Assembly (NCBI GenBank): GCA_020847545.1
Contig: JADLBV010000007.1
Location: 1 to 64,000 of the forward strand
DNA: 64,000 nucleotides
Direction: 5' to 3'
From: Phycisphaerales bacterium
Lineage (GTDB): Bacteria; Planctomycetota; Phycisphaerae; Tepidisphaerales; Tepidisphaeraceae
Shown: in pieces, positions 41,593-54,721 of the stretch
Numbering within the stretch: the first letter of the stretch is position 1
Layout: every line of letters begins with the position of its first letter
Notes under the pieces: generated by a model
Seen by the model: only the letters and a program-made list of their open reading frames with translations
What the model was told of the DNA's origin: nothing
Database searches by the model: none
Translations under genes and position numbers: made by a program

Positions 41593-42363
41593 ATGGCGGT
41601 TTTGAGCAATCGACATCGCGCCTACGCCCACATTCGCCAGAAGATGGTGATGGGTGAGTTGACCATGGGGGCGCATCTTTCCGAAGAAGCTTTGGCCAAG
41701 GAGATCGGGGTCAGCCGCACGCCGGTGCGGGAGGCGTTGAATAGGCTGGGGACCGAGGGGTTGCTGGAACACGCACCGAATTGTGGCGCGTTCGTCAAGA
41801 AATTCTCCCGTCAGGAAATATGGGAACTCTTTGAGCTTCGGGAAGTGCTTGAAGGGTATGCGGCCGCGCGGGCGGCGACGCGGCTTGGGCCGGAACAACT
41901 GGAGGAAATGCAACATCTGTGCGATGAGATGTTGCGGATGTGCCGGATGCTGCGGGATCATAAACGGCCCAACTTTACGGATGAGGAGCGAAGGCGGTTC
42001 TCGTTGACCGATGCCACGTTTCACCGGAAGGTGATCGGCGCGTGCGGCAATGAGCGGGTGAAGCGGCTGGTGGAGGATTTCGGGCTGATTTCCAAGCTCT
42101 GCAACCGCAAATGGCCTTCATCGCCGTCGTCGGAATTCAATAACGCCTGTTGGACCTGGGGGGCGCACGCCCGCATCCTGCGGTCGCTCAAGAAGCATGA
42201 TGGTGAGGGTGCGCGGCGATGGATGAGCGATCACATCAACCGCGGCGAAGCGGGAGCCATGGAATTGTATGATGATCCAGTGGAACCGACGATGATACCG
42301 TCGGCCAGGACCATATCATCGAAGGATCAATTGTCAGTGCGATATCGCAAGGGGGCGCGTTGA
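41593..42363 (+). CDS. GntR-family (FadR/FCD) regulator, second tandem copy, locus D
   Basis: 256 residues, nearly the same winged helix as the first copy ([51 protein letters not shown]) and the same FCD domain ([40 protein letters not shown]). The last ~25 residues differ from the first copy ([20 protein letters not shown]), so the two have begun to diverge at the C-terminus. DNA-recognition residues are identical, so both should bind operators D1 and D2; heterodimers are possible. The gene is led by a strong promoter overlapping D2. The pseudopilin ATG lies 61 bp after its stop. Confidence 0.9.
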
Positions 42364-42373
42364 AAGGTTGATT

Positions 42374-42430
42374 GAGGACTCTTTGGCACGGAGTGGTTGG
42401 CGGACACTTTTTTGGGAGACTCTCATGAAT
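42374..42430 (+). repeat. conserved 57-nt leader before pseudopilin, copy 2
   Basis: Second copy of the element at 40594-40650. It includes the ribosome-binding site GGGAG 6 nt before the pseudopilin ATG at 42425. Confidence 0.7.
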
Positions 42431-43240
42431 TCACAATTCTGCACGGCAGCGGGTGGTATGGGGCGGCAAATCGACCGAACGCGGGCCAGTCATAGAGGTC
42501 CAAAAGCCTTTACCCTGGTTGAACTCCTTGTGGTCATAGGAATTATCGCGATTTTGATCTCGATGCTGTTGCCGGCACTGAACAAGGCGCGCGAGTCTGC
42601 CAAGGATGTGGCGTGCAAGTCCAACCTGAAGCAACTGGGCATCGCCTCTCTCTTGTATGCGCAGGATTACCACGGCTACATCGAAAACGTGGTGTTGGAT
42701 CTGCATCTGGCAACCCTGTTCTATCCGTATCTGCGTGGTGGATCACCCCCCTATCCACCCTCATTTTCCATCCCCGGTCCAAAATTGGAGGTTTGTATTT
42801 GCCCATCAGACCCAACCATGGGTGGCAATACCTCCTATGGGGCCGGTGTGGTCCCCTTTGGATGGCCTGATCTGGTGGAACAGGATCATTTGAACAAGTG
42901 GGGCGCCAGATACATCAGCTATTGTGAGAACAATCATCTTTGCTGGGATGGAACCAATTGGGCGAAGTTCAAGCGCAATCAGGTCAAAAACTCAGCCCTG
43001 ACCATCCATTATGCGGATTATCCATGGTGGACGATCGCCTCGGGTGTGATCTCGGTTCCCAACATGTACAACCCGAACAATTTTACCCTGTGGGATGCCC
43101 ACTTTGACAAGGATCGCCATCGCGGCATGGTGAACTGCCTGTTCCTGGATGGGCACGTTGAATCCCTTCATTACACAACACTGGTCACCAATGGATCCAA
43201 TGATCACCTGTGGCAGCGGGATCCGGGTTCAGAATGGTGA
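42425..43240 (+). CDS. type II pseudopilin, second copy, locus D
   Basis: 271 residues. After a ~27-residue leader ([20 protein letters not shown]...) comes [20 protein letters not shown], with Ala at -1 and Phe at +1, then [23 protein letters not shown]. The C-terminal block [17 protein letters not shown] has the canonical nine-residue His-X9-Asp-Gly spacing. The internal PSDPTMGGN is shared with the first copy (PSDPTMGGD), but the middle sequences have diverged, unlike the regulators. This fits faster change in the externally exposed part. The PEP-CTERM gene follows after 57 bp and is likely co-expressed. Confidence 0.9.
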
Positions 43241-48079: not shown

Positions 48080-49252
48080 TCAGGCTGGTTGCAATGACTG
48101 CGAAGCATTCGACGGCTCGGCGGTTGAACGTCGTCGGGTGGGGACCAATCTTCTCCATGAAAGTGCAAACCCCGTCCAGACCAAGACCACCGTTCCGGCC
48201 GAGGCCAGGCCCGCAATGGATTGCCCCATGATGCCGGCCGCTTCGCCGGTGTGTCCAAATCGCGCCAGCGCCCGCAGTCTTCGACCCAAGCTCTGGCTGG
48301 CGAATGGTTCGTATCGAATCACCTCGCCTGCGCGGTTAATCGACAATTGCGAACGCTTTTGCGGCTGTCGGCCATTGCCGTGGTCAAGGGTAAACACCAA
48401 GGGAGATTCCGCGGATTGTGGCAATGTCAGGGACACCGAGCGCCAATTGTCGGAATATTGCTGAGCGGCAAGCAACCCCTGATCCGCGCCATTCATGGTC
48501 AGGGAAAAATCCGGCCTTTTCTCCTGCGTCCTGGAAACCTGTGGCCGGGCGCCTGTCGGCGAATTGGGAGGTGTTTCTCCAACAGCACGGTAGATCAGAT
48601 TGCCGGCCCATGGATAGGAAATGACCACACCGCTGGCCACAATGATCAGCAGCGGTGCCCAGCACCAGAACCCGATCACATGATGCCAGTTCCAATCACG
48701 GGCCTTGCCACGCAGTCGCAATTGAAACAGGGAGATGGACCTGATCGCATTCCAACTCCATCTCCTTGGCCACCACAAATAAAATCCCGATATGACCAGG
48801 AATAAAAACGCCAGGTTGCAAGCGCCGGTGATGGCCCGACCGGTGGTGCGCCATTCGCCGGATAGCGCCAACCAGCGATGCAGGTCGGTCACACCGCGAA
48901 AAAACGCGCGCACACGCGGTGAACCTTCACCATGTACAGTTGCGGTATAAGGATTGATATATACCGTTCGCCCACGCCCAAATGAAACCGCCACCGGCGC
49001 GGCCGGGTCATTTTGAAATGCGATGTTGGTGGGGGCCGATTTGTCATGTTTTACGGCCGCCAGCAGACTGGCGATGGGTAATCGAGGTGAATCGGATGCC
49101 GGCGGCGACTGCCAATAGCCGCTGTTGGCCCAGTTGCTGATTTGCAGCTCATACGTCAACAGCACCCCCGTCAGCGCCATCAGCCCGATGACGATGCCGG
49201 CCGCGAGACCGGTACAAAGATGCGCCCAAAAGATAATTTTTCGCAATGACAC
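48080..49252 (-). CDS. PepSY-associated membrane protein (PiuB-like)
   Basis: 390 residues. The N-terminal helix IIFWAHLCTGLAAGIVIGLM is typical of PepSY-TM proteins. Further membrane segments are near residues 140-160 (ACNLAFLFLVISGFYLWWP) and 195-220 (VIGFWCWAPLLIIVASGVVIS), with a last one near 350. The loop VYINPYTATVHGEG and the histidines DLHRWL and HHVIGFW match iron-uptake-associated PepSY proteins, which probably act as ferric-siderophore reductases. It follows a pseudopilin by 17 bp behind a promoter with a Fur-box-like palindrome, supporting an iron role. The start is a GTG at 49252 with a weak ribosome-binding site. Confidence 0.83.
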   Translation of the reverse strand: MSLRKIIFWAHLCTGLAAGIVIGLMALTGVLLTYELQISNWANSGYWQSPPASDSPRLPIASLLAAVKHDKSAPTNIAFQNDPAAPVAVSFGRGRTVYINPYTATVHGEGSPRVRAFFRGVTDLHRWLALSGEWRTTGRAITGACNLAFLFLVISGFYLWWPRRWSWNAIRSISLFQLRLRGKARDWNWHHVIGFWCWAPLLIIVASGVVISYPWAGNLIYRAVGETPPNSPTGARPQVSRTQEKRPDFSLTMNGADQGLLAAQQYSDNWRSVSLTLPQSAESPLVFTLDHGNGRQPQKRSQLSINRAGEVIRYEPFASQSLGRRLRALARFGHTGEAAGIMGQSIAGLASAGTVVLVWTGFALSWRRLVPTRRRSTAEPSNASQSLQPA

Positions 49253-50172: not shown

Positions 50173-50200
50173 ATGATATTGAGATTCAATCTCATGTCAA
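50173..50200 (-). promoter_or_regulatory. promoter TTGACA-16-TATCAT with Fur-box-like palindrome in spacer
   Basis: Minus-strand TTGACA (50200-50195) and TATCAT (50178-50173) are 16 nt apart. A perfect 7-1-7 inverted repeat, TGAGATT-C-AATCTCA on the plus strand, occupies 50180-50194 between them. The TGA...TCA ends and 7-1-7 layout match Fur boxes, so repression by iron-loaded Fur is the simplest reading. The start lies ~60 nt upstream of the pseudopilin ATG. Confidence 0.7.
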
Positions 50201-52103: not shown

Positions 52104-53600
<1,497 letters not shown>

Positions 53601-53608
53601 AAATTCTC

Positions 53609-54592
53609 CTATTGTTTTGACTGTTCCGTTTCCGTGCTTTTCTTCGTAATAGCCGTCGCTAAAAACAGCGCCGGACCTTTTGTATTCACCTGCGGCGTGA
53701 GCGGCCGCACCGTCGATTGATCAAATCCCGCCTCCTGCAGCATATCCCGCATCGCCTCCGTGCCGAATCCGGCGTGTTGCTGGTTCAACTGGCGGCGAAA
53801 ATCATCCCGGTCGTGCGGCAGCAGATCGACGATGACCGCCCGTCCGCCCGGTTTGACGATGCGGGCCATCTCACGCAGCACGGCGGCCGGCTGTGACACA
53901 TACGTCAGCACCAGCAACAACATCGCCGCATCGCATGTTCCATTCTCCAGCGGGATCGCCTGCAAGTCACCTCGCAAAACCCGCACATTGTTCAGTTCGG
54001 CCGTCCGACGGGCGGCGGTCTTCAACATCGCGGCCGAATTGTCGATCCCGATCACCTGCCGCACATACGGAGCCAATTCCGCCACCAGCGAACCGGTGCC
54101 GCAACCCAGATCGACCACGGTCCAATCGGGCGGGATCAACGCACAGCACGCCGCCGCGACGAATCGATCCCCGTACAATTCCGCACGCAATTTATCCCAT
54201 TGGGCGGCCGCCCCGGCAAAAAACGACTGGCTGGCGTTTTCACGATCCCGCAGCCGCCGGGCCAGCCGAAGCTGATCCTGCCGCACGGTTGGCCACGCAT
54301 CGGTCTGCTCCCGCGCCAGCAGCCACAACCGTCTCGCCGGTGGCTTCAACTCATCGAGGATCATCCGGTACAACCGTGTCGTCGCGTGCCGCCGCGAACA
54401 CACCCAATGCTGATCCGCCAGCAATTTCAGATGACGGCTGACGGTCGATTGCGGCAACTGCACGATCTCGCACAATTCCGCCACACCCAACTCGTTACGC
54501 TCCAGCAACAACAGCAACCGCAGCCGGGTGGGGTCGGCCAGCGACTCCATCCAGGCCACCAGCGCATCGGGCTGCGTGGAACCCTTAACCAT
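53609..54592 (-). CDS. ArsR-family regulator fused to SAM methyltransferase
   Basis: 327 residues. The N-terminal ~90 form an ArsR winged helix ([60 protein letters not shown]); residues ~140-310 form a class I methyltransferase ([17 protein letters not shown] with the G-x-G-x-G motif, [45 protein letters not shown]). No ArsR metal-binding cysteines are seen. Its position directly before ahcY suggests a regulator of the SAM cycle that senses SAM or SAH through the methyltransferase fold, similar in idea to SahR. The ATG at 54592 was chosen over a longer frame because it gives a normal ArsR N-terminus. Confidence 0.85.
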
Positions 54593-54721
54593 CAGTTCAT
54601 CCGGATGGATTGTTGAATAAAACCGCCCGCTTGTCAAGCGACTATGCGTAGGCAACCAACTCAAACGCTGGCAGGAATAAATCCAGACCGATCGAGATGT
54701 AAACCATGCAACTACAGTATT

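Follow-up and report, generated by a model that had tools for sequence, protein, structure and literature searches.

The classical Fur box of the E. coli type (TGATAATnATTATCA) is a 15-bp 7-1-7 palindrome with TGA...TCA ends that lies over sigma-70 promoters of iron genes, and the IRO box of RirA has the outline TGA-N9-TCA. In Caulobacter, the Fur-regulated hiuABC operon (PMC12424826) encodes a TonB receptor, the PepSY protein HiuB and HiuC, and, like the piuA/piuC/piuB loci, combines an iron box with a PepSY_TM/PiuB protein of the FoxB fold. In the siderophore reductase FoxB itself (7abw), conserved histidines bind two hemes (PMC13038864). Pseudopilins of the DUF1559/H-X9-DG type, which occur in the PVC group, share a prepilin N-terminus and form large paralogous families, with 68 DUF1559 paralogues in Planctopirus limnophila (PMC10632474) and 67 homologues of an alginate-induced pseudopilin in a verrucomicrobium (PMC13274419). 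In the literature searched, we found no report of a Fur box or an iron regulon of planctomycetes, and nothing relevant on HutX together with a pseudopilin.

The locus described here lies in a window of 64,000 nucleotides (the whole stretch of DNA that was analysed) and resembles the hiuABC and piu loci in joining an iron-type box to a FoxB-like PepSY_TM protein, but it is devoid of a TonB receptor and carries a pseudopilin in its place. The pseudopilin and PepSY_TM genes (Table 1) are located on the same strand with a gap of 17 bp and therefore probably form one operon. Upstream of both genes, a minus-strand promoter (TTGACA-16-TATCAT) agrees with the consensus at 11 of 12 positions, and its spacer is occupied from 50194 to 50180 by TGAGATT-G-AATCTCA. 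The initial annotation, which had placed a palindrome exactly within this 16-nt spacer, was correct in sequence and coordinates when read on the minus strand. Elsewhere in the window (52104-54664, minus strand), an S-adenosylhomocysteinase-like ORF adjoins an ArsR-type regulator fused to a methyltransferase, as read from the translation.

Table 1 Features of the pseudopilin-PepSY_TM locus and of further box sites in the same genome. Positions are those of the window unless a contig or locus handle is given.
Feature	Position	Strand	Remarks
-35 hexamer TTGACA	50195..50200	(-)	From sequence; same in G001 and G018
Putative iron-box operator TGAGATTGAATCTCA (box 1, pseudopilin-PepSY operon)	50180..50194	(-)	Perfect 7-1-7 palindrome in promoter spacer
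-10 hexamer TATCAT	50173..50178	(-)	From sequence; same in G001
Shine-Dalgarno-like AGGAAGGAA	50115..50123	(-)	From sequence; ahead of pseudopilin ATG
Pseudopilin, 278 aa	49270..50106	(-)	Prepilin-type N-terminal methylation signature; beside PepSY in four genomes
PepSY_TM membrane protein, FoxB/PiuB-like predicted ferric-chelate reductase	48080..49252	(-)	H11, H125, H190, H334 invariant
Box 2, strict (G000:C66)	L086:3662-8826		CBM96/PEP-CTERM protein, pseudopilin, HutX, membrane protein, second pseudopilin, esterase
Box 3, one mismatch (G000:C55)	L142:1185-4916		PEP-CTERM-like protein, methyltransferase, DUF1559 pseudopilin, 139-aa protein, HbpS
Box 4, one mismatch (G000:C83)	L301 ~1-1515	minus	feoAB; box in TTGAAA-16-TATAAT promoter
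Box 5	L302:1500-2294		Outer-membrane-like protein
Only Fur homologue of the genome	L001:1384-1905		PF01475, E 6.4e-25

The pseudopilin-PepSY operon is present in four genomes, all of them Phycisphaerales of one family, and two of the relatives carrying it are the Phycisphaerales MAGs SJ572 and SJ207. In the comparison with orthologues that the initial annotation had asked for, the palindrome was retained in all four pseudopilin promoter regions: it reads TTGACATGAGACTGAATCTCAATATCAT upstream of the gene in the congener G001, TTGACATAAGACTGAGTCTCAATACACT together with a second copy, TTGAGATCGAGTCTCGA, in G018, and TTGAGACGCAGTCTCAA near the pseudopilin start codon in G015. Alignment with the congener yielded the footprint TTGACATGAGA[T/C]TGAATCTCAATATCATGCC, in which 31 of 32 promoter positions are the same and outside of which the flanks have diverged. 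A search of 150 relatives (~0.6 Gb) with the relaxed box TGAGAYTNARTCTCA returned 60 sites in 43 of these genomes, compared to ~4.5 expected and to 0 sites for the reversed control in the same set. The aligned boxes are symmetric and non-random beyond the search pattern (TAATTGAGACTnAGTCTCAATTA), and the class consensus is TAATTGAGA[C/T]TnA[A/G]TCTCAATTA. Relative to the classical Fur box, arm positions 4 and 6 differ; because these two mismatches per arm are consistent across the class, the box appears to be a lineage-specific variant of the Fur box.

Among the proteins encoded next to the class boxes, Pfam analysis revealed FTR1 iron permease (9), SufB (SufBD, 8) and heme oxygenase (7). FeoB is also found among the box-headed genes of the class, and translations of the class-wide set further include an Nramp protein with two boxes and a neighbour resembling an iron ABC binding protein. 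For about half of the boxes in the class, the gene that follows has no evident iron role. Taken across genomes, a 7-1-7 inverted repeat, overlap with the core promoter and iron genes downstream are found together, as in a Fur-type operator, and from these sequence features we assign the box to an iron regulon as its putative operator with high confidence.

Strict matches are few in the genome under study, and allowing up to one mismatch gave six sites, of which five overlap or abut TTGACA/TTGAAA-16-TAnnnT promoters. Besides the pseudopilin-PepSY operon, the boxed units comprise feoAB, whose FeoA and FeoB were named by reading the translations, and two operons with heme-related products, namely the heme carrier HutX (PF06228, E 1.2e-27) in C66 and an HbpS-type heme protein (PF03928, E 1.9e-39) in C55. 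The HutX operon is kept together with its box and pseudopilin in G001 and G022, and in G006 a one-mismatch box directly precedes HutX, with a pilin signature further downstream. In three genomes, HutX is followed by a membrane protein of ~400 aa without a Pfam match (L086:5693-6889, L297, L298), a candidate heme permease. The boxed outer-membrane-like protein has homologues in G021 and G072 that are boxed too (L302, L113, L119; 42-48% identity) and could be an iron-related outer-membrane protein. No promoter accompanies the sixth site (C9:105816), which precedes tRNA-Phe and a CDF-like transporter and is probably a chance match, and a tRNA match at C77 was dismissed as T-arm sequence. In G009 and G006 (L084, L123), the first gene behind the box encodes a large PEP-CTERM-type protein of 581-583 aa and the next one a pseudopilin; the PEP-CTERM-type protein at L084 also shows a dockerin match.

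The PepSY_TM protein (PF03929, E 1.3e-52) matched FoxB over its full length by profile (8.3e-12, 21% identity), and its predicted model (pLDDT 88) matched the FoxB fold at 9.2e-15, which was the only confident PDB match. Its four invariant histidines occur in all 23 homologues compared and coincide with histidines of FoxB in the alignment. Profile, fold and histidines support the earlier reading of this protein as a PepSY membrane protein of the iron-uptake type. Outside the planctomycetes, its homologues adjoin genes whose translations read as TonB-receptor-like, PiuC-like dioxygenase and ExbB/ExbD-like, an arrangement similar to that of the Fur-regulated hiuABC operon. By analogy to FoxB, the protein probably reduces a ferric chelate, either a siderophore or heme-type iron. 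No Plug domain was detected in this genome, G001 or G018 (MAGs, 94-96% completeness).

The pseudopilin carries the N_methyl signature above cut-off (PF07963, E 1.4e-6) with the prepilin motif G-FSLVELL, including E5. With respect to a pilin-type globular fold, its predicted model, built from four sequences, was of poor quality (pLDDT 37). It has the same prepilin N-terminus as the DUF1559/H-X9-DG pseudopilins and likewise belongs to a large paralogous family, as the genome encodes 80 pilin-type (N_methyl) proteins; in contrast to the polysaccharide connection of that group, operator and operon here tie it to iron and heme genes. Three of the five iron-box operons in this genome hold a pseudopilin, and the four pseudopilins among their ~16 genes correspond to P ~9e-4 in a simple Poisson estimate that assumes ~3,100 genes, draws on a small, clustered sample and follows a motif search that was not blind to the pseudopilin finding. 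Class-wide, a pseudopilin lies within 3.5 kb downstream of 10 of 58 other boxes, compared to 3-4 in other orientations, so that a general pairing of box and pseudopilin is only suggestive. A DUF1559 pseudopilin in the window (41593-43240) adjoins a GntR/FCD regulator; PEP-CTERM-type proteins lie downstream, and no iron box was found at this locus, which is a pseudopilin locus of the non-iron type.

The initial annotation had linked the pseudopilin to iron rather than polysaccharide and, from there, proposed pseudopilins as general partners of uptake systems. The link to iron is well supported by the boxes in front of FTR1, SufB, heme oxygenase, Nramp and FeoB genes in the class and of feoAB in this genome. 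The generalisation is strengthened by the pseudopilin content of the boxed operons and by the recurrence of the HutX operon, but is no more than suggestive. With only ~four of the 80 pilin-type proteins in iron-box operons, most of them serve something else.

A Fur homologue had been called for, and exactly one is encoded in the genome. Its best NCBIfam match is a Fur equivalog model, below the cut-off of that model. Of the canonical metal sites (the HHDH region, CxxC, E108 and C138), it has lost most, with TYDY, CVCS and R in the places of HHDH, CxxC and E108, retaining only E81, D89, C93, H125 and C133 of the usual set, while the Fur proteins of f3, f12 and f17 relatives retain HDH and CxxC. 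Ligand loss is a trend across the family in which the recognition helix is kept. This helix reads [RK]ATVYRTL, with R/K before ATVYR where E. coli Fur (LATVYRVL) has L, and defines a clade common to the boxed families f1, f3, f4 and f5, plus f6. The fur gene itself has a box, with one or two mismatches, in two f6 genomes. Autoregulation of fur was considered for the present genome and rejected, with no box near its own fur gene. We hold with moderate confidence that the single Fur homologue would be the protein that binds the box.

Could the palindrome be a chance feature of the promoter? As such, and whatever its sequence, a perfect 7-1-7 palindrome is unremarkable, being common enough that 6.5 are expected per window under a first-order model, where four were observed. 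However, the exact 14 fixed bases of TGAGATTGAATCTCA, found once in the genome, are expected only 0.014 times per genome, and conservation in four genomes together with the shared iron regulon leaves chance a negligible probability; footprint and regulon already refute it. A regulator other than Fur deserves more attention, in particular an Rrf2-family [Fe-S] protein of the RirA/IscR type, since the RirA IRO box has the same outer triplets and length as the box described here. Eight Rrf2 proteins are encoded in the genome, one of their genes has a two-mismatch box near its start, SufB operons are a usual Rrf2/IscR target, and the resident Fur has lost most metal ligands. Yet the two-mismatch box is missing in the congener and 29 of 30 Rrf2 loci have no box, so that these loci give no support for Rrf2 control, whereas boxes at fur in the two f6 genomes, targets more typical of Fur (FTR1, feoAB, Nramp) and the recognition helix shared by the Fur clade of the boxed families all make an Rrf2 reader unlikely. 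A site of the DtxR/MntR or GntR type is highly improbable: although the genome encodes one DtxR-like protein and a GntR gene lies divergent to the HutX operon, none of 30 DtxR loci has a box (0/30), no GntR gene adjoins the box in any other boxed operon here, and across the class the targets are iron genes. Interpreting the C66 site as a GntR site was discarded as not generalisable.

The function of the operon admits two further readings. The PepSY_TM protein could be a copper reductase for heme-copper oxidases, as the PepSY_TM protein CrpH shares the conserved histidines and has a copper-linked role (PMC13038864), and the operon would then belong to copper and respiration instead of iron uptake. 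This is rather improbable given that the box is common to feoAB, FTR1, SufB and heme genes and that close PepSY homologues reside in loci of the TonB/PiuC type; FoxB was also the sole confident fold match, although CrpH has no solved structure for comparison. More weight has to be given to the possibility that pseudopilins in boxed operons are merely common genes that cluster with secreted PEP-CTERM genes and have no role in iron. The abundance of pilin-type proteins in this genome and the modest class-wide excess downstream of boxes fit such a scenario, which we nevertheless consider doubtful in view of the enrichment among the iron-box operons here, the PepSY pairing kept in four genomes and the HutX pairing kept in at least G001 and G022.

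From sequence and structure comparisons, we consider it likely that the palindrome is an iron-regulon operator, with Fur as the probable repressor, and that the operon would contribute a pseudopilin and a predicted ferric-chelate-reducing PepSY_TM protein to iron supply. Operator, promoter, operon, FoxB fold and shared regulon follow from sequence comparison, whereas binding by Fur, repression by iron, ferric reduction and an iron role of the pseudopilin are inferences. With ample iron, RNA polymerase would be blocked by a repressor bound between the two promoter hexamers (-35 and -10), most likely the single Fur-family protein, and under iron shortage the operon would be transcribed. Its products would be a pilus-like (pseudopilin) protein at the surface or in the periplasm and a PepSY_TM protein in the inner membrane, which would probably use electrons relayed by two hemes to reduce a ferric chelate. 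Ferrous iron could then enter the cell via FeoAB, the promoter of which contains the same box, and the pseudopilin may help to capture iron or to deliver it.

For Phycisphaerales without TonB receptors, we tentatively propose that pseudopilins, secreted PEP-CTERM proteins and PepSY, HutX or HbpS proteins could constitute an iron-repressed, TonB-independent system for iron and heme acquisition, possibly under a Fur lineage without classical metal sites. The pseudopilin families of planctomycetes are large and have no assigned function, and several members in this genome lie under the same type of iron operator. That these operons also encode heme-related proteins or a predicted ferric reductase, in cells in which we detected no TonB receptor, provides a directly testable role for pseudopilins. 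In addition, the box offers a motif for annotating iron regulons throughout the class.
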